Shown: positions 38,172-55,676 of the stretch, one piece after another
Layout of the letters: the number at the start of each line of letters is the position of its first letter
How positions within the stretch are numbered: the first letter of the stretch is position 1
DNA from: Tessaracoccus antarcticus
GTDB taxonomy: Bacteria; Actinomycetota; Actinomycetes; Propionibacteriales; Propionibacteriaceae
Assembly: GCF_003688855.1 (NCBI RefSeq)
Contig: NZ_REFW01000004.1
Location: 186,001 to 250,000 of the forward strand
DNA length: 64,000 nt
Direction: 5' to 3'
The notes under the pieces: generated by a model
Told to the model about the DNA's origin: nothing
The model's database searches: none
The model's input: the letters and a program-made list of their open reading frames with translations, nothing else
Translations under genes and position numbers: made by a program

Positions 38172-38172
38172 G

Positions 38173-38913: not shown

Positions 38914-38942
38914 GTGGATGCCTCCTCCTGCCCGGAAAGGAC

Positions 38943-38986
38943 GCCGTGCCGGGGACCGGGAAGTCAATCCCGGTCCCCGGCACGGC
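38943..38986 (-). terminator. Long perfect hairpin between secreted-protein and transporter genes of operon A
   Basis: A 19-bp perfect stem (38943-38961 with 38968-38986) and loop AGTCAA lie between the gene ending at 39008 and the anchored-protein gene. There is no U-tract on the minus strand, so it is more likely a partial attenuator or a 3'-end protector. It would allow more secreted protein than transporter to be made. Confidence 0.6.
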
Positions 38987-39007
38987 CGTCGGTGAACTTG
39001 TCACGTG

Positions 39008-41215: not shown

Positions 41216-41259
41216 GTATCGGGGTTCCTTCAGTTGTTCTGCAGAAGCGGGGACGGAGG

Positions 41260-42990
41260 TCACGAGAACTGGACCATGTTGTTGAAGATCTCCTTGGTGA
41301 CCCACCTGTAGGTGGTGGGCTGACCCGGCCGGGAGATGATGTCGATCACGCGGGCGGTGGCATATGTACGGCAGCCATTGCGCCCGGTGGTGGCGGTGTC
41401 ACACTCGGTGCGCCACGTGCGGCCATCAGCAGCAGTCCACGTGACGTCTGCCTTGGGCTTGCCGTTGCCTCCCAGTGGATTGGTCTTCCACAGGGAACGC
41501 GGCGACGGCAGGTAGGTCAGGTTGTTGAAGACGTATCCCTTGCTGGTCACGAACCGGCCGTTGACCTGGCTGACGGTGGTGGCCTCGATGAGGGTGCGGC
41601 ACCGCGTGGTCTTCGAGTACGGCTCGCAGGTGGTGCGCCAGTTGCGGCCGTTCACCGTCCTGTCGCCCGGGGTGTTGTACACGGTCTTCGGGGGCGTCGG
41701 CTTCACAGTGGGGCTGGGGCTGGGGCTTGGCTGAGCGACGGGCTTGACGGCGAGGGTGGCGACAGACGACGTGGCGCTACCTGCCGTGTTGCTGGCGACA
41801 GCACGGACCCTGAGGCCGTTGACGTCTGCTCCGACCTTGTCGAGGATCAGCGTGGGGGTATTGGCCCCGGAGATGGCGGTCCAAGTGCCTTTGACATCCT
41901 TTTGCCACGTGATGGCCGGGCTGGGATCTCCAGCTGCGTAGGCAGTAAAGGTCGCGCTGCTCCCGGAGTCGACAGAAAGTGACTGCGGTTGCGTTTGGAA
42001 TGCGGGCTTGCCCCCATTCGTGCAGTTCGCCAAGTCCCCGACCTGGGTGCTGTGGGCGGTGCCGTAGCCCTTCCCGATGATGCCGAGGACGGCCTGGGTC
42101 GTGGCCATGACATTGGGCTTTGTGTCGTTGAGTTCGGAGCCCCAACCCCCGGCCTTCGTGAGGGTCTGCTGTGCCTTGAGGAATTTCACCGGTGACGTGA
42201 TGTCCTCTCCCGCCTCACGGAGCGCGCTGGCGAGCATTCCTGTGGAGTTGGCTGGGGAGTACGTGGTCCAGTAGTAGTTGCCGGCGGCGTCGGAGCGTCG
42301 ATTCAACACGTTCTGGGACCAGTCCACGGCGTCAGAGACGCTCTGGGCTGCCGCAGAACGGTGGGTCGCGGAAACCTTGTCATTCGTGGCCACCAATTGC
42401 ATGGCTGAAATCCCGACAGCGGTGTAGTCGGGGTCAGCGACGAACTTGTTCCCTTCCCTGTACCCGAAACCCCCGCCCTCCTGATGCGCCTGCATGTAGT
42501 CAATGACCCAATCGGGCACCTGCTCTTCCGCCCGCGTGAGCGCGATGGCTATGAGGTAGGGCCCCCAGTACTCGCCACTGCTCACTGGCCCGTCTGTCAC
42601 CATGGCCTTCAGTTCGGCCACAAGGTCGCGCTGACAGCCGAAGAGGGTGCGCGGGTTCTGACCGGCGACGTCGGCCGTCAGGATCATCTTTGCGAGGCCC
42701 GCCGGGTTGTCGGCTGCGTAGGCCGGCCCGCGCCCTTTGAGGTCCAGCAGCATGGAGCGAACAGTGTCTGGCTCCTTGTTGGCGGCGCTCAGCGCGATGA
42801 CCCCGTCAGCAGTGGTGCCAGCCGCGAAGAACTGGTTGCGCTTGGTCTTCCACGTGTCGGCGATCCACGTCGAGGCGTTGGTGACGCTCGCGTCATCGGT
42901 GGCGTCGGCGTGCGCCGTTGACGGCGCCACCAGGGTGAGTGTGAGCAACAGCGCGACGAATACAGCGCCTGTGCGTTTCACGAGGGACAA
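41260..42990 (-). CDS. Secreted alpha/alpha-barrel protein with Ig and repeat domains, first gene of operon A
   Basis: 576 aa from TTG 42990. Signal peptide 1-28 (ending STAHA), helical barrel about 32-345 (GGGFGYREGNKFVADPDYT and YWTTYSPANSTGMLASAL), Ig-like domain about 355-440, Pro/Ser linker, and C-terminal repeat domain ending FNNMVQFS. It is a tandem paralogue of the next gene but lacks the DUF4430-like module. TTG is preferred over GTG 42981 because AAGGAG lies 5 bases before the TTG. That ribosome binding site sits in a CTCCT-GATCA-AGGAG hairpin downstream of the cobalamin riboswitch. Probably a surface or secreted corrinoid-capture protein (inference). Confidence 0.8.
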   Translation of the reverse strand: MSLVKRTGAVFVALLLTLTLVAPSTAHADATDDASVTNASTWIADTWKTKRNQFFAAGTTADGVIALSAANKEPDTVRSMLLDLKGRGPAYAADNPAGLAKMILTADVAGQNPRTLFGCQRDLVAELKAMVTDGPVSSGEYWGPYLIAIALTRAEEQVPDWVIDYMQAHQEGGGFGYREGNKFVADPDYTAVGISAMQLVATNDKVSATHRSAAAQSVSDAVDWSQNVLNRRSDAAGNYYWTTYSPANSTGMLASALREAGEDITSPVKFLKAQQTLTKAGGWGSELNDTKPNVMATTQAVLGIIGKGYGTAHSTQVGDLANCTNGGKPAFQTQPQSLSVDSGSSATFTAYAAGDPSPAITWQKDVKGTWTAISGANTPTLILDKVGADVNGLRVRAVASNTAGSATSSVATLAVKPVAQPSPSPSPTVKPTPPKTVYNTPGDRTVNGRNWRTTCEPYSKTTRCRTLIEATTVSQVNGRFVTSKGYVFNNLTYLPSPRSLWKTNPLGGNGKPKADVTWTAADGRTWRTECDTATTGRNGCRTYATARVIDIISRPGQPTTYRWVTKEIFNNMVQFS

Positions 42991-42995
42991 AGGGA

Positions 42996-43010
42996 CTCCT
43001 TGATCAGGAG
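42996..43010 (-). promoter_or_regulatory. Ribosome-binding-site sequestering hairpin of operon A
   Basis: On the minus strand CTCCT, GATCA, AGGAG forms a 5-bp stem that contains the likely Shine-Dalgarno sequence AAGGAG for TTG 42990. It is a plausible translational expression platform for the upstream riboswitch. Confidence 0.55.
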
Positions 43011-43064
43011 GCCTGCTGAAAACAAGTATGGGCGCACGCAAATGCACCGAACCCACCGCAGACC

Positions 43065-43195
43065 ACGACGATGAAACCGTTCTTATCCAGGCAGGTGCTC
43101 CGACTTCGGTGGGCCACGAGGGCCCTACCGTCACGGTTGCGGGTCAGTTCCGGATTCGCACCGAATTCCCCCACAGCTGGACAGCTCTGACCCTA
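43065..43195 (-). ncRNA. Cobalamin riboswitch A
   Basis: Read on the minus strand, the conserved cobalamin-aptamer blocks occur in order. They are GGGAATTCGGTGCGAATCCGG (43150-43170), CTGACCCGCAACCGTGA (43131-43147), and the B12 box AGTCGGAGCACCTGCC (43090-43105). These match the family consensus (GGGAA, CGGTG-x(3)-TCCG, GACCCGCAAC, AGTCAGGA-x-ACC-x-GCC). A TAGGGT -10-like box is at 43190-43195. It controls the six-gene operon A; ligand-bound RNA is expected to reduce expression. Ends of the aptamer are approximate. Confidence 0.92.
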
Positions 43196-43227
43196 CACTG
43201 ACCAGCACTTTTCGGCATGGGTGGGGT

Positions 43228-43908
43228 TCACCAGTTGCGTTCGCCGGAGCCACCATCGACGGGTTCAGAGCCGGAACCCTGCTCCTCGGCGCGCTGCCGT
43301 TCCTCCTGGGCCTGCTTCGCGCGCTCATCCAGCTCGTCAGTGCGTTCCTCGGAGGTCGTGGACTTCTCGGGAGGGGTCCAGTTGGCGTTGCCCTCGGATG
43401 TCTTGGACTCCACGCGCTGCCTCGCCTCGTTCCACGCGTCGGCCAGGGTGCCACCCCCCGGGGCAGGTTCGTTCGGACATGTGGTGTCGGCGAGCACCAC
43501 CTGGGCCTGCGTGTAGCGCACCAGGGCGCCCGGGACGTCGTCGGCATCGCGGAGGGCATCGGCACCGGACTCCAGGGCGAGCGACCAGTTGAGCCGTACC
43601 GTGCACTGTCGTTCTGCAGGGGCGAGGGAGGCGGCCTGCTGGAAGTCGTCGGCGGCCGCGTCCCAGCGCTGCAGTTCGAACCGTGCCACGCCCCGGTTGT
43701 GCACAGGGATCCACTTGTTCACCATCGACACCGACATGGAGCGTGAGTACTGCAGTTCGGCGCCGGTGTTGTCGCGCTCCTGCCAGGAGGTGTTCCCCGC
43801 CCGGAGGTACAGCAATTGCAGGGCGAGGACCAGTGCAGCCGCGAGCAGCGACACAGAGATCAGCCCCGGCAGCACGAGCCAGTGGGCTCTGCGTGGTTTC
43901 GGGGTCAT
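43228..43908 (-). CDS. TPR-like membrane protein, last gene of operon B
   Basis: 226 aa. A transmembrane helix (about 10-35) is followed by an extracytoplasmic region with two TPR-like helical pairs (VHNRGVARFELQRWDAAADDF and ALESGADALRDADDVPGALVRY). It ends in a charged low-complexity tail. It corresponds to the BatC/BatE-like TPR members of moxR-bat operons. ATG 43908 overlaps the preceding VWA gene by 4 bases. Confidence 0.75.
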   Translation of the reverse strand: MTPKPRRAHWLVLPGLISVSLLAAALVLALQLLYLRAGNTSWQERDNTGAELQYSRSMSVSMVNKWIPVHNRGVARFELQRWDAAADDFQQAASLAPAERQCTVRLNWSLALESGADALRDADDVPGALVRYTQAQVVLADTTCPNEPAPGGGTLADAWNEARQRVESKTSEGNANWTPPEKSTTSEERTDELDERAKQAQEERQRAEEQGSGSEPVDGGSGERNW

Positions 43909-44846
43909 GCGCGTGCCTCCCTGTGTGCCCGGCGGGCCTGCCGGATGGTGAACCAGCCGTCGACGGACAGGAGTGCGGCCGCGCCGATCGCCAGCAGCCA
44001 CGCCAACGAGTAGTCGGGTGTGCCGGTCTCGCCCGAGGCAGCACCGGCGCCGTCGGCCCAGAACTGCAGACCCCCGGGGGTGGTGCGGTGGTAGTACGTG
44101 CCGCCGAGTTCGTCGGCGATCCTCTGCAGCGTGGTCTCGTTGATGTGGGACAGCTGCGCGACGCCGTCGCGCTCCACGAGTTCATCGGTGTCGGGGCGCA
44201 ACGCCATGACGCCCCCCTGCTGGGTGCCGTAGCCCAGAACCATGGCGCCGGTGAGGAGTGGGGCCAACGTGTCGAAAGAGGCGGGGACCGCCTCCATCGT
44301 CTGTTCCCCGTCGCCGAGATAGACCAGGAATCGGCGGGCCTGGGGCCGGGACCGGGAGGAATCCTCCAGAAGCTGCTCGGCCACGGGTTTGCCCACCGAG
44401 ATGTCGCTTCCGATGCCGAAGCTCTCCTCACGCCACCCGACCGTCTCCGCGAACGTGACGAGGGCGGTGGTGTCCGTGGTCCACGGAACCGAGATACGGG
44501 CGTCGTTGTCCATGACGACGACGCTGTAGCGGGCGCTCGGCATGGCCGCGACCAGGGCGGACACGTCGGCGGCCACGCCGTCCATACGGGGGCGCTGCCC
44601 GTCCCAGTCCTGCGCGCCCATGGAGGTGGTGCGGTCGAGGACGATGACGACGTCGGTGGCGGTGGGAGCGGGGGGCTCGTCGCTGCCGGCGATGGCGGGC
44701 TGCAGCGCCACGGCGCCCAGCAGCAGGAGGATGCAGAGCCGGCGCCACGCGGATCCCGAGCGCAGCGAGCCGCGCGATGCCCAGAGGTGCAGGGCCAGCA
44801 CGACGACGACAGCCGCGAGCAGCGGCCACAGCGGAGTCAGGATCAT
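43905..44846 (-). CDS. VWA-domain membrane protein (BatB-like)
   Basis: 313 aa. Two N-terminal transmembrane helices (about 5-22 and 36-52) and one at the C-terminus (about 283-300) flank an extracytoplasmic von Willebrand A domain. The MIDAS is DRTTS (71-75), with Thr in the usual second Ser position. SARYSVVVMDNDARISVPWT is typical of Bat-type VWA proteins. It overlaps both neighbours, consistent with a stoichiometric complex with the MoxR ATPase. Confidence 0.85.
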   Translation of the reverse strand: MILTPLWPLLAAVVVVLALHLWASRGSLRSGSAWRRLCILLLLGAVALQPAIAGSDEPPAPTATDVVIVLDRTTSMGAQDWDGQRPRMDGVAADVSALVAAMPSARYSVVVMDNDARISVPWTTDTTALVTFAETVGWREESFGIGSDISVGKPVAEQLLEDSSRSRPQARRFLVYLGDGEQTMEAVPASFDTLAPLLTGAMVLGYGTQQGGVMALRPDTDELVERDGVAQLSHINETTLQRIADELGGTYYHRTTPGGLQFWADGAGAASGETGTPDYSLAWLLAIGAAALLSVDGWFTIRQARRAHREARA

Positions 44847-45808
44847 GACGCCACCCTCCGCCGGTGCGACAGTGATGCGCCGGCCAGGCCGAGAAGCGCG
44901 AGTGCAGCACCCGGCCACACCAGCGGCACCGACTGGCTGCGGGCGCGACCCGTCATGACGGCGCGCTGTTGGGCCTCGACCGCGCGGGTGATGGACGACA
45001 GGTCCGGCTCCGGGCCGAGCAGCATGACGTCCCCGCCCGTGGGCCTGAGGTGTGCGGTGAGGTCGTCGGTGGCGATGACGCTGTTGTCCGACGGGACGAT
45101 CCCGAAGACGAGCACGCCGCCCTTCACAGCCCGGGCCGCCGCCTGCTCGACGGAGAACAGCGGGGTTCCGCCCACCTGGTTGTCAGTGGCGAGCACCACG
45201 GTGCGCGACCGCTGCGCGTCGGTCCTGTCGAAGCGTTGCAGGCAACTGGCGAGGCCGTCGCCGATGAGGGAGGACCCCAGGTCGCCGACGCGGGTGCCGG
45301 CCAGTTGGCTGCCCCCCAGCGCCTCGGCGGTCTCCCTGAGGTGTTGCTGGATGTAGGCGGCGTCGTCGGTCAACGGGAAGATGGTGACGGCGGAGGCGTC
45401 GAACAGCACGAAGCCGATGCGTTCCCCGTCGAGGTTTGCCGCCAGGTCGGTGAAGCTGTTGATGACGGCGCGGTCCACCTGCGACATGGAGCCCGAGACG
45501 TCCAGGCACAAGACGATGTCTCGGTTGCTGCGCTCCTCGGAGACCGTGCTCGCGGACACCGGCCGGGCGGCCAGCAGCGCCACGCCCGCCCCGGCGACGG
45601 CGAGGCAGCAGGACTCGATGACGAGCCACCGGAGCTGCGCCTTCGCGAGCTCGGCGAAGCGGGGCAGTGCACGGATGCGGGCGGCGCCGGCCAGTGGCAA
45701 CGCGCCCGCTGCGGAGCGACGGCGCCCGGGCCAGAACCATGCGGCGATCCCCACGGCGGCCAGGACCACCAGGACTGCGAGTCCGTACCAGGGTTGGGTC
45801 AGCGCCAT
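44843..45808 (-). CDS. VWA-domain membrane protein (BatA-like)
   Basis: 321 aa with transmembrane helices at about 8-27, 62-82 and 290-308. The VWA domain has canonical MIDAS DVSGS (103-107). GERIGFVLFDASAVTIFPLT is a typical Bat-family strand. ATG 45808 is preferred over the longer frame to 45877, and it overlaps the DUF4381-like gene by 10 bases. Likely partner of the second VWA protein and MoxR. Confidence 0.87.
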   Translation of the reverse strand: MALTQPWYGLAVLVVLAAVGIAAWFWPGRRRSAAGALPLAGAARIRALPRFAELAKAQLRWLVIESCCLAVAGAGVALLAARPVSASTVSEERSNRDIVLCLDVSGSMSQVDRAVINSFTDLAANLDGERIGFVLFDASAVTIFPLTDDAAYIQQHLRETAEALGGSQLAGTRVGDLGSSLIGDGLASCLQRFDRTDAQRSRTVVLATDNQVGGTPLFSVEQAAARAVKGGVLVFGIVPSDNSVIATDDLTAHLRPTGGDVMLLGPEPDLSSITRAVEAQQRAVMTGRARSQSVPLVWPGAALALLGLAGASLSHRRRVAS

Positions 45809-46281
45809 TGCCGGATCACCTCCTCGGCCCCGCCGGCCACGGCGTCGACGTCGGGCTGGGCCGTGGGGGAGAAGCACTGGTCCTGGATACCCGTGACGAA
45901 GCTGGCCACGGGCTGCAGCCGGGGGTCACGCCGGGCGGCGGCCGCCAACTGGAGGGCAGTCTCGTAGTCGGCGTCGCCGTCGGAGGCGGTGCCCGCGAAC
46001 CAGCGTGCCGCCCGACCAATCTGCTGGGCGGCGTCCTGCGCGTTCAGACGACCGGCGTGGTAGTCGGCGGTGGCGGTGCTGATGCGCGACAACGCTGCGG
46101 AGCGCAGCTCGCGCAGCGACGTGTCATTGGTGTCTGCGGGTCCCCTCCCCAACGAACGCCAGCGGAGCACTCCGACGGCCATGACCGCGGCGGCGAGCAG
46201 TACGAGGAGCCCAACGAGGGCCCACCACCGCCAGTCGAGTCCGATGGGCGGGTTGATCTCCAGCAGGACGTCAGCGGGCAT
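45799..46281 (-). CDS. DUF4381-like membrane protein
   Basis: 160 aa with one transmembrane helix (about 19-42) followed by a helical domain. The N-terminal INPPIGLDWRWWALVGLLV segment and the position between DUF58 and VWA genes match DUF4381-type proteins of moxR-bat operons. Function unknown; presumed scaffold of the complex. Confidence 0.65.
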   Translation of the reverse strand: MPADVLLEINPPIGLDWRWWALVGLLVLLAAAVMAVGVLRWRSLGRGPADTNDTSLRELRSAALSRISTATADYHAGRLNAQDAAQQIGRAARWFAGTASDGDADYETALQLAAAARRDPRLQPVASFVTGIQDQCFSPTAQPDVDAVAGGAEEVIRQWR

Positions 46282-47155
46282 GACGGTGGCTCCTCACCAG
46301 GCTGAGGACGGCCGGGACCAGCCCGTCCGTGCCCGAAAGGTGGAGCGAGGAGATGGCGAGGCGAGACAGTGCCGTGGTGCGGCGCGCCGCGCGCTCGGTG
46401 CGGTCGGCCTCGATGGCTTCCCGCAGCCGCGGGTCGCGGCGCAACTCCTTGAGCAGCTCACGCTGGTCGTCGAGGCCGACGACGGGGGAGTCGGCGATGG
46501 CGGGATCGGTGGGGTCCAGGTCGGCAAGTGTGATCACCATGACCTCGTGCTGCACCACCAGGCGCCGCAGACGGGATTCCAGGTCGGCGTCGATGTCGAC
46601 GTCGTCGCAGACCAGCACCACGATGCCGCGGCGCCGCAGCGTGGTGGCCGTGACCTCCAGGAGGCGGCCCAGATCGCCCTCGGGCCGGTCTGCGGTGGAG
46701 GCGGCCTCGATGTGCCCGAGCATCCGCTCCAGTTCCACGTCCCGGGTGGAGGGGCGTGCCGCACGGATGTCGTGTCCGTCGCACCAGATAAGCCCCACGT
46801 AGTCGCCGTGCTGAGTGGCCAGGGAGCCGAACGCTCCGGCCACCTGGATCGCCACGTCGAGCTTGGTCTCGGTGGGACTGGCCATGCCGGCAAGGGACCG
46901 CCCGGTGGCCACCGCCACCATCACGGTGGTGCGTCGCTCCGCGACGTGACGCTTCACGAGCAGCGAACCGCCGCTGCGCGCCGAAGCCTTCCAGTCGATC
47001 TCGGCGACGTCGTCGCCGCGCACGTACTCACGCAGGTCGTTGAACTCCATGCTGCGCCCGGCGTGCAGCGAGGAGTGGACGCCCTCATACAACCCGCCCA
47101 CCCGATGCCGGGTGGCGAGCGCGATGGCGCGTCGAACGCGTGTCAGACGGGCCAT
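46271..47155 (-). CDS. DUF58 protein of the MoxR module
   Basis: 294 aa. The family motif FNDLREYVRGDDVAEIDWKA (residues about 38-57) is present, followed by an incomplete VWA-like fold (VVLVCDDVDIDAD). DUF58 proteins nearly always partner a MoxR AAA+ ATPase. It starts 3 bases after the moxR stop. No transmembrane helix is obvious, so it is probably cytoplasmic. Confidence 0.88.
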   Translation of the reverse strand: MARLTRVRRAIALATRHRVGGLYEGVHSSLHAGRSMEFNDLREYVRGDDVAEIDWKASARSGGSLLVKRHVAERRTTVMVAVATGRSLAGMASPTETKLDVAIQVAGAFGSLATQHGDYVGLIWCDGHDIRAARPSTRDVELERMLGHIEAASTADRPEGDLGRLLEVTATTLRRRGIVVLVCDDVDIDADLESRLRRLVVQHEVMVITLADLDPTDPAIADSPVVGLDDQRELLKELRRDPRLREAIEADRTERAARRTTALSRLAISSLHLSGTDGLVPAVLSLVRSHRHAR

Positions 47156-47158
47156 GGG

Positions 47159-48181
47159 CTACGGCGTGGGGACAGCGTCGAAGATGGCGTCAATGAGGTC
47201 GTCCGGCTTGATCTGCTCGGCCATGGCCTCGAACGTCAGGACGAGTCGGTGGCGCAGGATGGAATGGCGCATGGACACCACGTCGTCGGGGACCACGTGG
47301 TTGCGGCCGGCCAGCAGCGCGTTGCTACGCGCCACCTGCATGAACGCGATGGCTCCACGGGGGCTGGCGCCGTACTCGATCCAGCGGGCATGTTCGCTGC
47401 CCAGGAAGTCACCGGGGCGCCGGGTGACGTTGATGAGCTCCACGATGTAGCGCTTGATGCTGTCCTTGACGTGGACCCGTGAGCACAACGCCTGCAGGCG
47501 GAGGATGTCGGCGGTGGTGGCGACGGGCGGGCCGGGTGTCTCGAAGGTGCCGCGCTCGATGCGGTTCAGGACCTCGATCTCGTCGGCGGGCTTGGGGTAG
47601 TCGACGACCTCCTTGATCAGGAACCTGTCCATCTGAGCCTGGGGAAGCACGTAGGTGCCCTCCTCCTCGATGGGGTTCTGGGTGGCCATCACCACGAACG
47701 GCGCCGGGAGCGGGTGGCTGGTGCCGCCGATGGTGGTCTGGTGCTCCTGCATGGCCTCCAGCATGGCCGACTGGGTCTTGGCGCTGGAGCGGTTGATCTC
47801 GTCGAGGAGCACGAAGTGCGCGTGGACGGGGCCCAGCTCCGTGCGGAAACTGGAGGTGGCAGGGTCGAAGACCTCGGTGCCGATGATGTCGCTGGGGAGC
47901 AGGTCCGGGGTGCACTGGATGCGGGCGAAGCTGGCGTCCACGGACCGGGCCAGGGTGCTGGCGGCCAGCGTCTTCGCAAGGCCGGGGACCGACTCCACCA
48001 GGATGTGGCCCCGGCTGAGGACGGTCGCCATGAGGGCGCGCCGCAGCCTCGGCTGGCCCACGACGGTGGCGTCGAAATAGCGCGTCAAAGATTCCAGCGT
48101 CGCCTCGGCGCCGGCCATCTCGTCGCTGGCCAGCGTCTGACTCGGGAACGTGGCGGCCTGTGTGCTGGTGTCGGCAGTCAT
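47159..48181 (-). CDS. MoxR-family AAA+ ATPase
   Basis: 340 aa. Walker A ESVPGLAKT (63-71), Walker B FVLLDE (123-128), the MoxR insert RSSAKTQSAMLEAMQE and sensor MATQNPIEEEGTY are intact. MoxR ATPases act with VWA proteins as chaperones, often for metal or cofactor insertion. ATG 48181 overlaps the ECF-S-like stop, so the MoxR module is co-transcribed with the riboswitch-controlled genes. It is the only intact ATPase in operon B. Confidence 0.93.
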   Translation of the reverse strand: MTADTSTQAATFPSQTLASDEMAGAEATLESLTRYFDATVVGQPRLRRALMATVLSRGHILVESVPGLAKTLAASTLARSVDASFARIQCTPDLLPSDIIGTEVFDPATSSFRTELGPVHAHFVLLDEINRSSAKTQSAMLEAMQEHQTTIGGTSHPLPAPFVVMATQNPIEEEGTYVLPQAQMDRFLIKEVVDYPKPADEIEVLNRIERGTFETPGPPVATTADILRLQALCSRVHVKDSIKRYIVELINVTRRPGDFLGSEHARWIEYGASPRGAIAFMQVARSNALLAGRNHVVPDDVVSMRHSILRHRLVLTFEAMAEQIKPDDLIDAIFDAVPTP

Positions 48182-49062
48182 TCAATCTCCTGGGTGGTGG
48201 GCGTGTTCCAGAGTGTTGTCAGGGTGTCGCTGCGGTGGCGACGGCTCAACGCGGCCGGGGCGACGTCCGGCGGGGGTGTCGCCGATGCGGGCGGCACAGG
48301 TGCTGGGGCGCCGTGGGTGTGCCGCAGTGCACGCAGCACGGGCAGGCCCACCGCCAGTATGACGAGGGCGTTGACGGCCGCGCGGGTGAGGTCGAAGGCC
48401 ACTGAGGTGGCCAGCGTGTAGTCGACCAGACGCTGGAGCGCCTCCAACGGTGGTAGCCCCGGGAGGAAGCCGCCGGTGGTGGCGTCGCGTTCCCCGGTCC
48501 AGCCGGTGATGTTGAGCGCCATTCCGGTGAGGACACCGAGTGGTAGGCACGCGAGGACTGCCACCATCCAGGCCACGACGGGACGAAGCAAGCGCAGAAA
48601 TCCGCCCACGGCGCCCCACATGCCCCACACCAGGATCTGTCCCACCAGAGGCGTGTCGACCAGGCCCATGGCCACCGATGATGCGAGCGCCGCCAACGCA
48701 CCGGTCAGGAACCCGGCGGGCGCGCCCAGTGCGGCCCCTGCCAGAAGTGGGAGGGCGTAGACCGGCTCGATGCCACTGCCGCCTGGCGACAGCAGCATCC
48801 TGACCAGTGCGTCGACGAGCGCAACAAGCAGCACCGGGCCGAACACGGAAGCCCTCCGACCCGCGTCCAGCCAGATCGACGTGGCAAGTACGGCCAGCAG
48901 GGACAGGAGGGCGGCCAGCAGGAACGGTGTCTCGGCCTGGAGTGCATCGCGACCGGGAGCGGTGAACGAGGACCAGATGGGCCACGCCAGCCACCCCACG
49001 CCCAGCACCCCGAGGGTGAGCAGGGCGGAGCGGGAACGCCAAGCGGCGAGGAGGCGGGTCAT
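48178..49062 (-). CDS. ECF transporter S component-like protein, operon B
   Basis: 294 aa with about six to seven hydrophobic segments and a 50-residue Pro/Ala/Arg cytoplasmic tail absent from the operon A copy. Shared with that copy are the GSGIEPVYALPLLAG-type segment and LVDYTLATSVAFDLTRAAVN near the C-terminus. Substrate is unproven. It overlaps both the degenerate ATPase and moxR genes by 4 bases. Confidence 0.7.
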   Translation of the reverse strand: MTRLLAAWRSRSALLTLGVLGVGWLAWPIWSSFTAPGRDALQAETPFLLAALLSLLAVLATSIWLDAGRRASVFGPVLLVALVDALVRMLLSPGGSGIEPVYALPLLAGAALGAPAGFLTGALAALASSVAMGLVDTPLVGQILVWGMWGAVGGFLRLLRPVVAWMVAVLACLPLGVLTGMALNITGWTGERDATTGGFLPGLPPLEALQRLVDYTLATSVAFDLTRAAVNALVILAVGLPVLRALRHTHGAPAPVPPASATPPPDVAPAALSRRHRSDTLTTLWNTPTTQEIE

Positions 49063-50504
49063 GCATGCACCTGCGTCTCGGTGGTGGCCAGGACGTCGGT
49101 GAGTCGAAGGTAGCGAGTGGAACCGACGGCGCGGCAGACCAGCGGCTCTGTGGGCAGCAGTTTCGCGACGGCTGAGGGGGAGCCGTCGCCGATGACGTGG
49201 TCGTGGGAGACCACGACGAGCCGGTGGCAGGCACGCACGAGGAACTCGACGTCACGGCTCGTCACCAGACGGGTGCCGGCGGGGCGGCGCCGGAGGTCCT
49301 CGGCCAGGCTGTGGCGTTCGCGCGGGTCGAGGCCGGCCTGGGGGTGGGAGAGCCACAGCGGCGTGGTGGGGCCGCCGGCAAGTGCCAGCCGGAACAGGGC
49401 AAGTTCGCCGGGGCTGAGGTCCACGAGTAGTGCGCGGGGACGCAGCGTCGGGAGGTGCGCCAGGACGGACCCGACGGGCAGGTCGTGCCGGCGCTCCCAC
49501 GTGCGGGCGGCTGCGCCGATGCGCAGGGTTCCGGGCAGTTGGCTGGGCACCACGTCGCCGCCCGGGAGCTTCGAGATGAGCCTGCGGGCCAGAGCCTCGG
49601 GGCGACCACCCGTGTCGATGATGCCCACGCACTCACCGGGGCGGATCTCGATGGCCGTCCCCGACAACCCGACGGTGGCGGCATCCACGAGGGTGCCCGA
49701 CCCTGTTGGGGCGGCGCTGTCGGCGGTCCGTCGGGGGAACAGGGGCAGGACGATCCCGGACTCCTCAAGGGTCTCGAGCGTCTGCTCCGCCGTGCGGCAG
49801 TCGGCGGGTGGGACGTCGAGGGCGCGGGCCAGGGTCAGCAGCGTCGGCTCGGGCAGTGAGTGGGGTTGCCACTCGTCGGGCCGGCCCTGCCAGGCGATGC
49901 GCCCGTCCACGAGTTCCACGATGATCTCTGCGTGCTCCCAGACCGCATCGAGGTCGTGCTCCGCCCACAGGACGGTGGCGCCGTCGCGTGCCCTGTCGCG
50001 CAGCAGGGTGCAGAAGCGGTCGCGTGTGGCGGCATCGGCCGCGCCCAGCACCCGGTCCACGAGGATGAGGGAGGGTGCAGTCGTACCGGCGCGGGGCAGG
50101 AGGCTGGCGCAGTGCAACCGGAGGCGCAGGTCGATGGGCAGTGAGGTGAGGCGACGCGCCAGGTCGTCGGCCAGGCCGAGGTCATCAGCGGCGGAGGTGT
50201 CTCCCGTGAGGATGCGCAGGCAGTCGGCGACGGTGCCGCCCGGCAGGGCGTCATCCGAGATCCACAGGGCCGCGGTGGTCAGTTCGTCGCGGGTGGCACC
50301 GTCGATCCGTCGTCCGTTGAGGGTGGCGGTACCGCGGATACGTCCGTTGTTCATCGCGCCGGCGAGAGCCCGCACCAACGTGGCACCACCGGAGCCGGAG
50401 CGGCCCACAACGGCCGTGATGCTGCCTGGGGCGGCCGTGAGGGAGAGGTCGCCGATGGTGCGGCCCCCGGGGTCCACGCAGCTGAACGCAGCGAGCTCAA
50501 GCAT
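49059..50504 (-). CDS. Degenerate double ABC ATPase (ECF A-A'-like), operon B
   Basis: 481 aa, colinear with the fused ECF ATPase of operon A but with eroded catalytic motifs. Domain 1: the P-loop reads GRSGSGGAT (34-42), so Lys is Gly at 40; no LSGGQ is seen; Walker B is LILVDRV (146-152), lacking the Glu; the switch AEHD is kept. Domain 2: the P-loop region is GIIDTGGRP (294-302), again without Lys; the signature is LSPGE (363-367); Walker B is LWLSHP (383-388), lacking Asp and Glu; the switch His is lost. The frame is long and intact and overlaps neighbours, so this is a maintained pseudoenzyme rather than a decaying gene. Probably a structural or nucleotide-free scaffold (inference). Confidence 0.82.
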   Translation of the reverse strand: MLELAAFSCVDPGGRTIGDLSLTAAPGSITAVVGRSGSGGATLVRALAGAMNNGRIRGTATLNGRRIDGATRDELTTAALWISDDALPGGTVADCLRILTGDTSAADDLGLADDLARRLTSLPIDLRLRLHCASLLPRAGTTAPSLILVDRVLGAADAATRDRFCTLLRDRARDGATVLWAEHDLDAVWEHAEIIVELVDGRIAWQGRPDEWQPHSLPEPTLLTLARALDVPPADCRTAEQTLETLEESGIVLPLFPRRTADSAAPTGSGTLVDAATVGLSGTAIEIRPGECVGIIDTGGRPEALARRLISKLPGGDVVPSQLPGTLRIGAAARTWERRHDLPVGSVLAHLPTLRPRALLVDLSPGELALFRLALAGGPTTPLWLSHPQAGLDPRERHSLAEDLRRRPAGTRLVTSRDVEFLVRACHRLVVVSHDHVIGDGSPSAVAKLLPTEPLVCRAVGSTRYLRLTDVLATTETQVHA

Positions 50505-51513
50505 GGGCCGCCACCCTCCGGGGTGTCCGCTGCCCGGTCAGGCCCACAGCCAGCGGCAGCAGGACCGCAGCCCCGGCCAGGGCCCACGGGAGAGCGGTGA
50601 GATCCCCGGGGGGCGGATTCAGGGCAGCCGTCTGGCCCAGTGGGCCCCTCAGTGCCCATGCGAGCGTGAGCACGAGGGCCGCGGCCGCCTGCGGGACGTC
50701 GCTGGCCCGCCACTGCCACACGAGGGAAGGGGTGCCCGGTAGCGCCAGTCCGAGGACGACGGCCAGCACCACCACCAGGGCGATGAGGTCGGTGCCGAAC
50801 AGATGGGTGGTGACCGCCGTCGGAAGCACTCCCGCGGCCAGCGCGAGCACAGGTCCGGCGGTGAGGAGGAGCAGCATCAGGAGACGGATGATCTCCACGC
50901 CGGGGCGGGGTGCCACGCGAGGGCGGTCTGCGCGGGCGATGTCGCGGGCGGCCAACAGCAGTGACGTCAGCCATCCGGCGGCCGCACCGCTGCCCCAGCG
51001 CTGCTGCGCCACGCGCTGCCGGGAGGCCAGTGCCTCCACGCTGGCCTCTCCCACGCAGGCCAGCGGGTGGAGTGCGGGGGCCCCTGCACCCAACGTGGAG
51101 CGTGACAGTGCCAGCCAGCCCCGGGCACTCACGAGCTGCCCGGCCAGCCCGAACAGCAACACGACTGCCGCCGCACGCAGCGCCCCCACCAACCCGCCGA
51201 CCACCGACGTGAGGCCCAGCGGGCCCCCGAAGGTGACACCGGGGCCCGGTGACCAGCTGGGAAGCATGAGGAGGGCGTCGGCGGCGGAACCACGCGGGAG
51301 AACGAGAGTGAGACCCACCCAGACCAGGGCTGCGGCCAAGGCGGCGCCCAGGGCCGTGACAAAGCTGGCGCGGCGCGGCCCTCCCGCCATGAACCCGGTG
51401 GCGCCGAGTGCCACCACCAGCACCAGCAGCAGCACGGGGTTGGTGGTGTTGATGGAGATGGTGCTGCCCACGAGCAGAAGCCACAGCCAGACCAGGGGAT
51501 GTCCGTCGGTCAT
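50497..51513 (-). CDS. ECF transporter T component-like protein, operon B
   Basis: 338 aa with about eight hydrophobic segments and the LNPPPGDLTALPW C-terminal segment that parallels LNPPPLTLTWPAL of the operon A T component. The coupling motif is weakened: EALASRQR (160-167) stands where the operon A protein has MEARGYGR. It overlaps the ATPase gene by 8 bases and the preceding gene by 4. Confidence 0.72.
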   Translation of the reverse strand: MTDGHPLVWLWLLLVGSTISINTTNPVLLLVLVVALGATGFMAGGPRRASFVTALGAALAAALVWVGLTLVLPRGSAADALLMLPSWSPGPGVTFGGPLGLTSVVGGLVGALRAAAVVLLFGLAGQLVSARGWLALSRSTLGAGAPALHPLACVGEASVEALASRQRVAQQRWGSGAAAGWLTSLLLAARDIARADRPRVAPRPGVEIIRLLMLLLLTAGPVLALAAGVLPTAVTTHLFGTDLIALVVVLAVVLGLALPGTPSLVWQWRASDVPQAAAALVLTLAWALRGPLGQTAALNPPPGDLTALPWALAGAAVLLPLAVGLTGQRTPRRVAAHA

Positions 51514-52463
51514 CGGAGGCCTCCCCGCCGTCTCAGGCCGGTGACTGCACCCGCGACGGTCACGACCAGGGCCAGTCCGGCCACGCCACCAGCAGCCAGC
51601 ACCACCGACTTTTCGGGGTGGGTGGCCACGAGGTTTGCCCCCGTGAGGTCCGCACCCACCGGTGGGGGCTGGAACGCCGCAGCGGGTTCGCGGGGTGTGC
51701 CGTCAACGGTGGGGGTGGCCAGCCACAACGGCGAGATGGCCGAGTCGCTCACGTTGCGGAGCCGGAATTTGTGGGGCGTCGATGTCAGGCCGCGCGGCAC
51801 CACGTAGCGCAGCGTGGTGATGGCGTCGGGACGTGTGGCGGCTGCAGTGGTGTTCGCGGGGGCGGCGTCGGCTGTGGCCGTGGTGTCGTGCCAGATGCCG
51901 TCAGCGTCGGCATAGTCCACGGCGAAGCGGGTTCCCGGGATGGTGCCGGTGAACTGCAGGTCAAGGACGGAGCCAGCGGGCTTCTCGTCGCCGTACCCAT
52001 CGCCCAGGATCAGCGGTACGCGGGCACCGAACGGGACGAACTGGCCAACCGTCTGCAGCGTTTCCGTGGTGTCCTGCATGCCGCCGACGCTCACGAGTGC
52101 CCACCCGCTGGAGTCGCCACCAGCGCCCAGGGTGGGGATGGCGACGTCAGTGTGTGCCACTCCCGAGGTGTTGGTGATGACGTCGGCCTCACTGCTGATG
52201 GGGCGCAGTTCCGTCAGGACGCCGTCGGTGGCGACGGCGAGATAGACGACCACCTGGATGCGCGCATTGGCGTTGCCGATGACGGTGACGGGGAACGTGG
52301 CGCCCTCGCGCAGCCAGTCGTTGGTCTCCAATGCGCAGCCGCGTGGGGAGCCGGCGCAGAGGGTGGCTGCCTGGGCGGGGGGTGCAGCGGCCGCGGGACT
52401 CACGGCCCACGGGGCAGCGAGCAACAGCGTGGCCAGCGCAAGCGTGGTGGTGCGGCGGATCAC
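51510..52463 (-). CDS. Surface-anchored protein of unknown family, operon B
   Basis: 317 aa. Signal peptide (about 1-27), beta-rich extracellular region with a likely Cys36-Cys43 pair, C-terminal transmembrane helix (about 287-309) and an RRRGG tail. I recognise no family. The GTG start overlaps the preceding DUF4430-like gene, so the two anchored proteins are co-translated and probably form a complex. No counterpart exists in operon A. Confidence 0.75.
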   Translation of the reverse strand: MIRRTTTLALATLLLAAPWAVSPAAAAPPAQAATLCAGSPRGCALETNDWLREGATFPVTVIGNANARIQVVVYLAVATDGVLTELRPISSEADVITNTSGVAHTDVAIPTLGAGGDSSGWALVSVGGMQDTTETLQTVGQFVPFGARVPLILGDGYGDEKPAGSVLDLQFTGTIPGTRFAVDYADADGIWHDTTATADAAPANTTAAATRPDAITTLRYVVPRGLTSTPHKFRLRNVSDSAISPLWLATPTVDGTPREPAAAFQPPPVGADLTGANLVATHPEKSVVLAAGGVAGLALVVTVAGAVTGLRRRGGLR

Positions 52464-53620
52464 TCGTCCTCCACGACCGGCGGCACGGAGGTCTGCAGGC
52501 CACGGGCGAAGGCGGTACCGAGCCCGCCCACCACGACAGCAGCACCGGCGACGGCCGCCAGCTGCGACCAGGGTGCGGGCTTGTCGTTGCGTGTGGGTTC
52601 GACGCTCTGCCGCTTCACGTCCTCACGGCCCCAGACGCGCGACGGCGACGGGTTGGCCGCGGCCGTGGTCTCTCCCGAACCCGCGGGGCCCGTGGTCGGC
52701 TCCTCGATGACTGGTGGTGGTGGTGGTGGTGGTGGTGGCTGCTGCACGGGTGGAACCGGTGGGTTGGCGGGTGGCTGCGGCTCATAGGTGGACCGGCGTG
52801 GAGGAGTGGTGCGCCGTGTCGGGCGGCTCGTGGGGCGCCGCGTCCGTGGGGGCGTCGTCGTCCTGCGTGCAGTGGTCGTGGGGGTGGCCGTCGGCGTACT
52901 CGAGGTTCCGCCGGTGGGAGTGTTCGTGGCGGTGTTGGTGGGTGAGGCAGTGGCCGACGGGGTCGCCGTCTGCGTGGCGATCCCGCTCGCAGAGGGGACT
53001 GGACTCGTCGCCGAGCCACTTGGTCCAGGGCCGGAGGTGCTCTCCGATGCGGTTGGCGTGGGGCTCGCGGGCTCGGTGAGGGTGGGGGTCTCCGTGGGCT
53101 CCGTCAGGTCGAACTGGGGCGCGGCGACTGGTTCGGCTTGGCCAGTGGCGGACAGTGTGATGCCCACGAAACTGTCCACAAGTGGCTTAGGTCTCCACTC
53201 GTCTCCTGCCAGCCATCTCCCCCCCTCCTCATCGACCTTTCCAAGGATGTAGCGCCACGATCGTCCATCGCCTTCACTGATGCCGTGGATGCTGGTGACA
53301 ACACCCAAAGGGTCTGCATAAGCGATTTCTGCTGACTCCAGAGGGTTCGTCAAGTCGGAATCCCCCTCTGTTGGGTACGTTTGGTCCGCGCCCAGTTTGA
53401 TACAGCGAATCAATTGCGTTTCGCTGACTCCTGGGAGTGACTCAGGGGCCTCGTTCCAGTCGATGACAACTGTCTGCCCCTCTTTCGGCCTGCACCAGCC
53501 GTCTCGCCAGCCAACACCATCCGCGAGGGCGGCCCCCGGCATCGCCAGCATCCCCACGGCAGCAATGCCGAGCGCGGCAAACCCTGCCATGAGGCGTTGG
53601 GGGCGATGTGGATGTGGCAC
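52460..53620 (-). CDS. Surface-anchored DUF4430-like protein, first gene of operon B
   Basis: 386 aa. Signal peptide 1-34 (ending GAALA), extracellular module about 38-155 (WCRPKEGQTVVIDW, IRCIKLG and GRSWRYILGKV), then a long Ser/Thr/Pro linker, nine consecutive prolines, a transmembrane helix (about 353-375) and an acidic tail. The module is weakly similar to those at 38173-38913 and 39008-41215. GTG 53620 has GAGGAGA 11 bases upstream. The gene directly follows a cobalamin riboswitch. Corrinoid binding is inference. Confidence 0.72.
   Translation of the reverse strand: MPHPHRPQRLMAGFAALGIAAVGMLAMPGAALADGVGWRDGWCRPKEGQTVVIDWNEAPESLPGVSETQLIRCIKLGADQTYPTEGDSDLTNPLESAEIAYADPLGVVTSIHGISEGDGRSWRYILGKVDEEGGRWLAGDEWRPKPLVDSFVGITLSATGQAEPVAAPQFDLTEPTETPTLTEPASPTPTASESTSGPGPSGSATSPVPSASGIATQTATPSATASPTNTATNTPTGGTSSTPTATPTTTARRTTTPPRTRRPTSRPTRRTTPPRRSTYEPQPPANPPVPPVQQPPPPPPPPPVIEEPTTGPAGSGETTAAANPSPSRVWGREDVKRQSVEPTRNDKPAPWSQLAAVAGAAVVVGGLGTAFARGLQTSVPPVVEDE
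52713..52739 (+). repeat. GGT trinucleotide microsatellite
   Basis: Eight GGT units and one GGC in a row. On the coding (minus) strand they give nine prolines in the linker of the operon B DUF4430-like protein. Slippage would change linker length without a frameshift. Confidence 0.9.
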
Positions 53621-53639
53621 GGGCTGACTTTCTCCTCAC

Positions 53640-53815
53640 GTGGCCCGGCTGCGCGACTCGTGAGTCACGCCACGCAGTCCACGACGTGGGTTACTACGTG
53701 GTCCTCCCGGGTATCCCGGCTCGTCCGACAAAAATGTGCGGCATCGCGGTTGCGGGTCAGCGCCGGATTCCCACCGGCTTCCCTCTGGTGAAGGGCCACG
53801 CCCGCAGTCTGCGGG
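53640..53815 (-). ncRNA. Cobalamin riboswitch B
   Basis: On the minus strand the conserved blocks occur in order: AGGGAAGCCGG then TGGGAATCCGG (53763-53784), CTGACCCGCAACCGC (53746-53760) and the B12 box AGCCGGGATACCCGGG (53706-53721). A TATGAT -10 box lies at 53824-53829. The region 53641-53700 has a GACT-CACG-AGTC inverted repeat that may belong to the expression platform before GTG 53620. It controls the eleven-gene operon B. Boundaries are approximate. Confidence 0.92.
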
Positions 53816-53823
53816 CGATCCTC

Positions 53824-53829
53824 ATCATA
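53824..53829 (-). promoter_or_regulatory. -10 box of operon B
   Basis: TATGAT on the minus strand, placing the transcription start near 53817, just before the riboswitch aptamer. No consensus -35 was found. Confidence 0.5.
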
Positions 53830-54002
53830 GCTTCCAGGGTTCGCAGCCCAGCACCGCGGGCAGGCTTCTGTGAGCACGAGGGTGCCCCTCCAGAGTTTTT
53901 TGACGTCAAGTGCTGTCAGGGGGCGACGCTGGTTGAAAACAGGAGTACTTTTTCTTTCGACGGGCGAACGACCGCCGGCAGGAAGTCGACAGGGGGCAGG
54001 GC
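53830..54002 (+). promoter_or_regulatory. MFS gene upstream region
   Basis: Contains the palindrome TTGACGTCAA (53900-53909), which includes a -35-like TTGACG, preceded by a T-run. No matching -10 was found, so the palindrome could be an operator. CAGGG precedes ATG 54003. Confidence 0.3.
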
Positions 54003-55676
54003 ATGACCGATCACGCAGCGAAGGGGACCGGACGGCGTCGATGGTTCGGGCTGTTCTTCATCAGTTTGGGTGTCGCGCTCATCATCGTCGACTCCACCAT
54101 CGTCAACGTCGCCATCCCGTCGATCATCGACGACATCGGACTCACCTCCAGCGGCGCGCAGTGGGTGCAGGAGATCTACACGCTCGTCTTCGCGGCCCTG
54201 CTCCTGGTGTGGGGACGGCTGGCGGACCAGTGGGGCCGACGGCGCCTGTTCATCATTGGCGTGGTGATCTTCGCGGGGTCCAGCGTGCTGGCTGCCACGT
54301 CGGGAACAGGCACGCTCCTCATCCTCGCCCGTGCTGTCCAGGGCATCGGCGGCTCGATGATGCTGCCCACCTCGCTGTCGCTCCTCAACGCAGGGTTTCG
54401 TGGCAAGGAGCGGGGCATTGCCTTCGCGTTCTGGGGCGCGACGATCGGTGGCATGGCCGCCCTCGGCCCGCTGCTGGGTGGCTGGCTGACAACGTCGTTC
54501 TCATGGCGGTGGGCCTTCGGTATCAACATTCCCCTGGGTCTGCTGGTGATCGTGGGAATGCTCCTGTACGTGGCCGAGTCCAAGGACGAGCACGCTCGCG
54601 CAGGAACCGACATCCCCGGCGCGGTTCTGGCAGCCGTCGGCTTCGGCGGCCTGGTTTTCGGGCTCATCGAGGGCCGCAACTTCGGCTGGATCAGGGCGAC
54701 GGGGGACTTCTCGGCATTCGGGTGGACCTGGCCGTGGTCGGTGTCCGCGTCGGCCGTGGCAGGGACCGTTGGTGTGGCGGCGCTCGTGACCTTTGTCCTG
54801 GTGGAGCGCGGCCGCAACATTCGGGGTGACGCTGCCATGCTCGACCTCAGCCTCTTCACCATCCCGTCGTTCCGCAACGGCAACATTGCTGCGGCCATCG
54901 TCAGCCTCGGGGAGTTCGGCGTCATCTTCAGCCTGCCCCTGTGGCTGCAGAGCGTGACCGGCTACTCCGCCTTCGAGACGGGTCTGGCGCTCCTGCCCCT
55001 GGCGGTCGGCAGCTTCGCGGCCAGCGGGGTCAGCGCCACCATCGGGCAGCGGTTCACCCCGGTGACCCTCGTGAGGATGGGCATCGCGCTGGAGATCGTC
55101 GGCATCGCGGGCTTCGGACTGCTTCTGCGGACCGAGAGTGGCTGGCTCACCACCACACCCCTGCTCTTCGTCTACGGCATTGGCGTCGGACTGGCGACGG
55201 CGCAACTCACGGGTGTGGTGCTCGTTGATGTCCCGGTGGAGCGCAGCGGGCAGGGCTCCGGCACGCAGTCCACCGCACGCCAGGTGGGCTCCGCCCTCGG
55301 CATCGCCATCCTCGGCACCATCCTGTTCACCACGCTCGGCAGCCGTCTGGACGACGCCCTGCAGGCCATGGGGCAACTCCCCGACGTTGCGCGCCTCAAG
55401 TTCGTCGACGCCGTGAAGGACTCCGCAGGCGCCATCATCCCGTCGCTGCGGGCCGACCCGGCAACGGCCCCCGTGGCGGAGGCTGCCCGCAATGCATTCA
55501 CCGACGCCGCCCGTGCGTCGGCGCTCAGCGCGGCAGCGTTCCTGGTGGTCGGCATGCTGGCCAGCCTCTCGCTGGGTGGCCACAAGCACGACATCCCCCG
55601 TCACGCCTCGGACGAGGAGGCGACGGCTGACGTCGTGGCGCCCGACTCCCATCCCCTGCACGCGGCGTCCGACTGA
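54003..55676 (+). CDS. MFS transporter, DHA2 (14-TM) drug-exporter type
   Basis: 557 aa with about 14 hydrophobic segments. Motif A is visible as GRLADQWGRRRLFI (residues about 71-84) and motif C-like glycines in GGMAALGPLLGGWLT. DSTIVNVAIPSI in helix 1 is typical of the EmrB/QacA subfamily. Likely a proton-coupled exporter of drugs or metabolites; substrate unknown. It is divergent from operon B. Confidence 0.88.
   Translation: MTDHAAKGTGRRRWFGLFFISLGVALIIVDSTIVNVAIPSIIDDIGLTSSGAQWVQEIYTLVFAALLLVWGRLADQWGRRRLFIIGVVIFAGSSVLAATSGTGTLLILARAVQGIGGSMMLPTSLSLLNAGFRGKERGIAFAFWGATIGGMAALGPLLGGWLTTSFSWRWAFGINIPLGLLVIVGMLLYVAESKDEHARAGTDIPGAVLAAVGFGGLVFGLIEGRNFGWIRATGDFSAFGWTWPWSVSASAVAGTVGVAALVTFVLVERGRNIRGDAAMLDLSLFTIPSFRNGNIAAAIVSLGEFGVIFSLPLWLQSVTGYSAFETGLALLPLAVGSFAASGVSATIGQRFTPVTLVRMGIALEIVGIAGFGLLLRTESGWLTTTPLLFVYGIGVGLATAQLTGVVLVDVPVERSGQGSGTQSTARQVGSALGIAILGTILFTTLGSRLDDALQAMGQLPDVARLKFVDAVKDSAGAIIPSLRADPATAPVAEAARNAFTDAARASALSAAAFLVVGMLASLSLGGHKHDIPRHASDEEATADVVAPDSHPLHAASD

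Follow-up and report, generated by a model that had tools for sequence, protein, structure and literature searches.

A cobalamin riboswitch-headed operon of Tessaracoccus antarcticus pairs an ECF-like core, ATPase-dead by its motifs, with a MoxR/VWA gene set

Organization of operon B

We analyzed a 64,000-nucleotide stretch of the Tessaracoccus antarcticus genome (assembly GCF_003688855.1, contig NZ_REFW01000004.1, positions 186,001–250,000; hereafter the window, with positions counted from its first letter). It carries a cobalamin (vitamin B12) riboswitch and, downstream of it, 11 open reading frames (ORFs) on the minus strand (53620–43228), designated here as operon B, in which two genes for surface proteins and three homologues of energy-coupling factor (ECF) transporter subunits are followed by a MoxR/VWA gene set (Table 1). 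An earlier sequence-only reading had described this locus as a riboswitch followed by eleven same-strand, mostly overlapping genes, and the covariance-model score and the measured junctions agreed with that description. Nine of the ten junctions overlap by 4–11 bp and the remaining one, between moxR and the DUF58 gene, is a 3-nt gap; the exact distances are partly a matter of construction, as the gene starts nearest the upstream stop were picked. The overlap between the S-subunit gene and moxR is 4 bp, which leaves no room between them for the promoter and terminator by which, according to the same reading, the unit might have been divided.

The region 42800–54050 was also scanned for transcription signals. 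No sigma-70-like promoters were found, which is little informative given 0.4 sites in shuffled sequences, and four terminator-like sites were detected (2.5 in shuffles). The sole site on the operon B strand (43048–43031) lies past a second cobalamin riboswitch, which heads the neighboring operon A, a canonical ECF operon. Taken singly, genes 1, 2, 3, 5, and 8 hit no Pfam family at an E value of 0.05 or better.

Table 1. Positions of operon B, operon A, and adjacent features in the window (Ig, immunoglobulin; MIDAS, metal ion-dependent adhesion site; MFS, major facilitator superfamily; aa, amino acids).
Feature	Position	Strand	Description
Cobalamin riboswitch (RF00174), head of operon B	53783–53710	−	Covariance-model match, 43.1 bits (gathering threshold 31.5)
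Gene 1	52460–53620	−	Signal peptide, extracellular transcobalamin beta-like (DUF4430-like) domain, Pro/Thr-rich linker, C-terminal membrane anchor
Gene 2	51510–52463	−	Anchored extracellular protein, beta-sandwich (Ig-like) domains, no family
Gene 3	50497–51513	−	ECF T-subunit homologue lacking the MxxRGYGR block of canonical T subunits
Gene 4	49059–50504	−	Two-domain ECF A-subunit homologue, ATPase-dead by motifs; ABC_tran 7.6e-7
Gene 5	48178–49062	−	ECF S-subunit homologue
Gene 6	47159–48181	−	MoxR AAA+ ATPase; AAA_3 1.4e-58; nearest solved relative 2r44
Gene 7	46271–47155	−	DUF58, 6.5e-30
Gene 8	45799–46281	−	DUF4381-like, one hydrophobic segment
Gene 9	44843–45808	−	VWA protein (Pfam), MIDAS DxSxS, three hydrophobic segments; start in the ORF list 45877, upstream
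Gene 10	43905–44846	−	VWA protein (Pfam), MIDAS-like DxTxS, three hydrophobic segments; start in the ORF list 44918, upstream
Gene 11	43228–43908	−	N-terminal hydrophobic segment and TPR motif; start in the ORF list 44001, upstream
Cobalamin riboswitch, head of operon A	43210–43073	−	38 bits; begins 18 nt past the last operon B stop
Operon A	34610–42990	−	Two Ig-domain proteins, a 264-aa protein, canonical ECF T, A, and S
765-aa Ig-domain protein of operon A	39008–41305	−
Operon A T subunit	37002–38207	−	CbiQ-type, canonical
Operon A A subunit	within 35383–37194	−	Two-domain, intact in the motif alignment
Operon A S subunit	34610–35386	−	PF12822 below cut-off, 2e-4
MFS efflux-type transporter	54003–55676	+	Divergent, directly upstream of operon B

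ECF-like core

Genes 3 and 5 had been labeled ECF T-like and S-like in the earlier reading, and both labels were supported indirectly, by profile comparison with the canonical ECF loci of the operon A kind (hereafter A-type, as opposed to B-type loci organized as operon B). The gene 3 family aligned with the CbiQ-type T subunits of A-type loci (hhalign probability 98.7, E value 3.2e-16), and gene 5 with the S subunits of the operon A type, which are PF12822-type (probability 99.85, E value 1.5e-30). Pfam CbiQ matched none of 22 members of the gene 3 family. Among 13 members of the gene 5 family, four matched PF12822 (best 4e-4) and six PF07155 (best 0.0016); neither the A-type nor the B-type S subunit matched a solved chain by sequence at E values up to 1.

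The conserved RG block of ECF T subunits has a coupling role. The RGYGR block was present in all seven A-type T sequences and in none of the 22 B-type ones. The B-type alignment covered 22 of the 30 loci, the remaining genes being unreadable as one ORF (L053, L067, and L068), short (L013), or left out by choice (L050, L051, L054, and L073).

The A-subunit homologue was examined in an alignment of gene 4, its 29 orthologs, and the A subunit of operon A. The Walker A lysine was gone in all 28 readable B-type rows and the Walker B glutamate in all 29, where it was replaced by Gln (20), Arg (3), His (3), Ala (2), or Pro (1). The first half of gene 4 retains the Walker B aspartate and the H-loop histidine, and no GK[ST] was found in the alignment columns shown for the second half; the motifs of operon A's subunit were intact in the same alignment. 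Judged by these motifs, gene 4 is unable to hydrolyze ATP, and its earlier description as a degenerate ATPase was correct and applies to the orthologs as well. As a separate observation, the corresponding gene of L067 (genome G150) looks fragmentary, and that of L066 (G149), as called, is without the Walker A region. Because two features of ECF transporters, a competent ATPase and the T-subunit block, are absent by their motifs, we classify operon B as an ECF-like system and not as an ECF transporter.

MoxR/VWA gene set

For genes 6, 7, 9, and 10, the labels MoxR, DUF58, VWA, and VWA given earlier were confirmed by Pfam matches above the cut-off. The motifs GLAKT and LLDE of MoxR were present in 30 of 30 rows, DxSxS in all 29 rows of the first VWA protein, and DxTxS in all 28 readable rows of the second one. 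Gene 8 was assigned indirectly: DUF4381 matched seven of nine tested orthologs, below the cut-off in each (best 1.9e-5). For the TPR label of gene 11, a match exists (TPR_2, 1.1e-4), although it falls below the Pfam cut-off, and the label is retained with that qualification. The VWA domains of genes 9 and 10 appear to lie outside the cell.

The order moxR-DUF58-DUF4381-BatA-BatB-TPR(-BatD) is that of the Bat (Bacteroides aerotolerance) operons, and genes 6–11 follow it; operon B differs from Bat operons in that this set is joined to pseudo-ECF genes and a riboswitch. No Pfam match to BatD was found among the operon genes scanned, and gene 2, an anchored Ig-like protein, may stand in for it.

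Surface proteins

The predicted fold of gene 1 is that of a transcobalamin beta domain, with 10–17% identity in the aligned part. In its model, gene 1 resembles both the beta domain of transcobalamin and intrinsic factor and the bacterial protein 3u7z, which we take to be a DUF4430 protein. Unlike transcobalamin and intrinsic factor, it has no alpha/alpha-barrel domain and is membrane-anchored. The earlier label DUF4430-like thus held indirectly, by the fold and by a DUF4430 match (5e-4) in one of 18 members of the gene 1 family.

The AlphaFold2 model of gene 2 (pLDDT, the per-residue confidence, 84.6) consists of strands and one C-terminal helix, and Ig-like folds were returned in Foldseek/VIA. 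No firm Pfam match was found among 23 family members, the best being FNIII-A_GpJ (0.0025) in one of them. Gene 2 was recognized in 29 of 30 loci, with the exception of L059, and two gene-2-like proteins are present in L013, L014, and L049–L057.

Conservation of the operon in relatives

A profile of the S family was run on the window's order, represented by 391 genomes sampled evenly out of a larger group. Matches were obtained in 320 of them and were mostly A-type, since the profile contained one A-type-like row (P0096) and also picked up A-type genes across most of the order. B-type loci were delimited by an S score of at least 206 bits, which, counting the window, gave 28 loci from 26 genomes; a fragment (G346, L126) and two named Nocardioides loci brought the set to 31. 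The earlier reading had proposed looking for the same gene order in other genomes and had taken its absence from all relatives as a refutation; the order was present: S, MoxR, DUF58, two VWA, and TPR genes occurred together and in order in 30 of the 31 loci, the sole exception being L075, where a contig edge falls inside MoxR. The DUF4381-like gene was not recognized in L074. The T gene was recognized (phmmer, 20 bits) in 24 of 30 loci, and two of the other six contained an ORF of the right size that could be aligned.

The B-type loci span two families and were found in Arachnia/Tessaracoccus, Acidipropionibacterium, Nocardioides, and one further genus. Carriers include an uncultured Arachnia, Propionibacteriaceae S7A_St_31, Tessaracoccus OH4464_COT-324, Acidipropionibacterium jensenii DSM 20535, Nocardioides alcanivorans, and N. 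carbamazepini, as well as N. marmotae and N. yefusunii by protein name. The locus of A. jensenii, a dairy species, is L070, and that of N. carbamazepini is L014. A peptide-pattern scan of genome contigs with one pattern recovered six loci, which says little about breadth. Outside the order, no B-type locus was found in a phylum sample of 396 genomes, where, the window genome aside, S matches did not exceed 131 bits; this ceiling is in the A-type range, given that the S subunits of operons A and B in the window score 104 and 401 bits, respectively. Twelve candidate loci outside the order, hand-picked from the best (L101–L112), were all rejected as A-type, with no match to the MoxR set. Two genomes hold two copies of operon B each (L050 and L054 in G254; L073 and L074 in G023).

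The earlier claim that the ECF-like genes are tied to the MoxR/VWA genes was strongly supported by the conserved order, the adjacency of the frames, correlated divergence, and the riboswitch described below. In each of the 29 loci measured, the S and MoxR reading frames either overlap or adjoin, the extremes being a 17-nt overlap and a 10-nt gap when starts nearest the upstream stop are picked. Mantel tests on pairwise distances of the A, S, MoxR, DUF58, and VWA genes gave r of 0.90–0.97, a value reached in none of 2000 permutations for each of the 15 pairs; the tests covered 23 of the 30 loci (L013, L062, L066, L067, L068, L074, and L075 were left out), and common descent alone would also be expected to produce such a correlation.

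Operon A and canonical A-type loci

Operon A resembles operon B in having homologous T, A, and S subunits, extracellular proteins, and a cobalamin riboswitch; it differs in its intact ATPase and has no MoxR set of its own. Its Ig I-set proteins are 624 and 765 aa long. The Ig domain of the latter is nearest, among PDB structures, to Ig domains of animal Robo and receptor phosphatases (E value 1.4e-15), which is odd for a bacterial surface protein.

For comparison, 24 A-type loci were hand-picked, 12 within the order and 12 outside it, with up to about 9 kb on each side, although some contigs were shorter. Nothing in the sequence fetched for these loci matched MoxR, DUF58, gene 8, or the two VWA proteins; L117 ends 110 nt past S, so that its downstream side was out of view. 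The Walker A and Walker B motifs of both halves were present in all 21 fully readable A-type ATPases, one half was intact in L108, and L107 and L077 were cut by contig ends. In four of eight A-type loci outside the order, a cobalamin riboswitch above the cut-off was located upstream of the genes, so that A-type loci themselves resemble a B12-regulated importer.

Cobalamin riboswitches and corrin synthesis

The riboswitch survey included 30 loci (the window, 27 from the genome search, L013, and L014) and was carried out on the strand of the operon. A cobalamin riboswitch was found at the head of operon B in 22 of them, mostly within 0.4 kb of the first called start, and 10 of the 22 score below the Rfam gathering threshold of 31.5. 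The genome search contributed 19 of these riboswitches, 18 at E values below 0.001 and that of L060 at 21 bits (E value 0.003); the matches in L013 and L014 score 27.7 and 33.8 bits, the latter about 0.9 kb before the first recognized gene. In eight loci of the Nocardioides type (L049, L050, L051, L052, L053, L055, L056, and L057, in genomes G220, G254, G248, G218, G265, G305, G258, and G195), a second match was located on the opposite strand, at most a few hundred bases away, as if a divergent gene were B12-controlled too.

The genome of the window (3.65 Mb) contains six RF00174 matches above the cut-off and two below it. Three of the eight fall in a stretch read as a cobalamin biosynthesis region. 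Since CbiC was found in this apparent region, the organism probably makes the corrin ring. In a genus read as Nocardioides (g33), CbiC was present in none of the eight genomes with operon B and in 11 of 14 hand-picked genomes without it (Fisher p 0.001). Thus, operon B was found both with and without corrin synthesis, and uptake or salvage of outside corrinoids fits better than synthesis.

Comparison with known systems

Operon B shares with ECF transporters, such as the cobalamin transporter ECF-CbrT (PMC5997447), the T, A (with two nucleotide-binding halves), and S homologues and the cobalamin-linked regulation. In contrast to them, its A homologue has lost both the lysine of Walker A and the glutamate of Walker B in all readable orthologs, its T homologue is without MxxRGYGR, its S profile lacks a solved-chain match (E values up to 1), and a MoxR/VWA set and extracellular proteins are added.

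The same gene set invites comparison with NorQ-NorD, CbbQ-CbbO, and RavA-ViaA, in which, as in operon B, an intact MoxR AAA+ protein stands beside MIDAS VWA proteins. According to PMC13036017 and PMC9976466, NorQD twists and stretches a VWA linker so that metal enters a membrane enzyme; a membrane target is shared by NorQD and the machine proposed here. Operon B differs from these three systems in its VWA proteins, which are anchored in the membrane and apparently expose the VWA domain on the outside, in its proposed ECF-like target, and in its B12 riboswitch. The parts of operon B belong to known families. In the open-access literature searched, which mostly lacks subscription papers, no account turned up of an ATPase-dead ECF core that is paired with a MoxR/Bat set and headed by a B12 riboswitch.

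Proposed function of operon B

We tentatively propose that operon B encodes a B12-controlled machine for corrinoid acquisition, in which the MoxR/VWA proteins act on a complex of the pseudo-ECF core and a surface receptor for the hand-over of B12. The proposal builds on the remodeling of target proteins by MoxR/VWA machines elsewhere, as in NorQD. The membrane core would be a pseudo-ECF complex in which the S and T homologues are joined by an A subunit unable, judging from its motifs, to hydrolyze ATP; MoxR is the one ATPase in operon B that is intact. On the model of NorQ/NorD, rings of MoxR on the cytoplasmic side, together with the DUF58 and DUF4381-like proteins, would push against the VWA and TPR proteins anchored in the membrane, the folded domains of which appear to be outside. 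This push would remodel the assembly of the pseudo-ECF core and the surface proteins, namely gene 1 where present, gene 2, and perhaps the receptors of operon A. The likeliest purpose would be that B12 held tightly by a surface binder is released or handed over to the membrane, to the S subunit of operon B or to the neighboring canonical ECF importer A. In this scheme we infer the topology, the physical complex, the substrate, the direction, and what the ATP pays for; gene content and order, the riboswitch, the homologies, the loss of catalytic residues, the conservation, and the co-occurrence with A-type S subunits were read from the sequences themselves. The earlier suggestion that MoxR/VWA remodels or energizes the transport complex gained in plausibility from a dead ATP-binding cassette (ABC) subunit beside an intact MoxR in all readable loci, and the choice between energizing, unloading, and assembly stays a matter of inference.

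Several observations weigh against this proposal. The fold match of gene 1 has a Foldseek E value of just 0.015, and toxin-translocase chains were among its top ten. This B12-binder-like gene was recognized in 18 of 30 loci and missed in L014, L049–L057, L070, and L074; ten of these twelve, of the Nocardioides type, carry a second gene-2-like protein instead. The riboswitch lies 3.6–4.9 kb upstream in five loci, is weak and 1.6 kb away in L074, and was not found in L061 and L070 among the 30 loci surveyed. The eight Nocardioides genomes with operon B may be one clade, and no CbiC contrast was observed in Propionibacteriaceae (17 of 18 genomes with operon B, G266 being the one without CbiC, and 17 of 21 hand-picked genomes without the operon). 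In addition, canonical A-type loci outside the order, some of which (four of eight) have the same riboswitch, work without MoxR, and MoxR is therefore not generally needed.

The strict pairing of a dead ABC subunit with an intact MoxR suggests, at the level of sequence, that power is supplied by MoxR. It is possible, though we consider it unlikely, that the ABC ATPase now acts as a scaffold and that the MoxR ring with the VWA proteins powers either transport itself or the removal of B12 from the transcobalamin-like receptor. The main alternatives to the hand-over model are pure assembly and the direct powering of transport. A dedicated assembly chaperone of the NorQD/CbbQO type, which would mature or repair the receptor/pseudo-ECF complex once and outside the uptake cycle, is a doubtful alternative. 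The MIDAS motifs are intact, and the MoxR/VWA pairs described in PMC13036017 and PMC9976466 are remodeling or cofactor-insertion machines, as such a chaperone would be. However, a chaperone alone leaves unexplained why the ECF ATPase is dead in all readable loci with MoxR, whereas all fully readable A-type loci, which are without MoxR, have an intact one.

This same pairing might be taken to mean that MoxR replaces the ABC motor, its ATP hydrolysis toppling S through DUF58/VWA and the dead A subunit and driving the corrinoid across the membrane. The T subunit without its RGYGR block and the joint divergence of A, S, MoxR, DUF58, and VWA are consistent with a replaced motor, although the latter would follow from common descent as well. 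Nevertheless, we regard motor replacement as improbable: the VWA domains are apparently outside, away from the ATPase, pseudo-ATPases often turn into regulators, and no MoxR is known to drive transmembrane solute transport.

A regulatory or storage role is in our view more improbable still. Here, the pseudo-ECF complex would not itself transport B12 but would sense it, store it, or serve as an adaptor, either borrowing operon A's intact A subunit or feeding importer A, and MoxR/VWA would regulate the contact. Each of the 27 genomes in the order sample that have a B-type S subunit also has at least one S-profile match beyond its B loci, and operon B is followed by genes of the operon A type in all eight loci of the window's genus, counting the window, whose sequence extends far enough. 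However, S-profile matches occur in most genomes of the order sample anyway, which makes the co-occurrence only mildly informative, and operon B retains an A homologue of its own. Finally, an accidental co-regulation, or a MoxR set that serves something unrelated, might be suspected from the other functions for which MoxR-bat operons have been studied elsewhere and from four further MoxR genes in the window genome, but it is highly improbable in view of the same gene order in two families and of the identity of the window's B-type MoxR to other B-type MoxR proteins (61–91%, against 39–44% to its four paralogues).

Taken with the proposed hand-over of B12, the conserved combination of a dead-ATPase ECF core with MoxR/VWA suggests a so far undescribed means by which cells power or maintain the capture of B12 on their surface. 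To our knowledge, the mode of action and the targets of MoxR/Bat machines are largely unknown, and the B12 regulation, the dead ECF core, the transcobalamin-like neighbor, and the swap in ATPase competence offer a concrete target and ligand for their study. If the proposal is true, an ECF core can be uncoupled from ABC ATP hydrolysis, and the system hints at how actinobacteria, which have no outer membrane, free vitamins from tight surface binders.

Other riboswitches and the upstream neighbor

Other riboswitches of the window genome were located near a metE-like gene (L010), ribonucleotide reductase-like genes (L011), and a cobalamin biosynthesis/cobalt ECF cluster (L009), with gene names assigned by reading, except for CbiC. 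The gene directly upstream of operon B encodes a divergent transporter of the MFS efflux type (Table 1).

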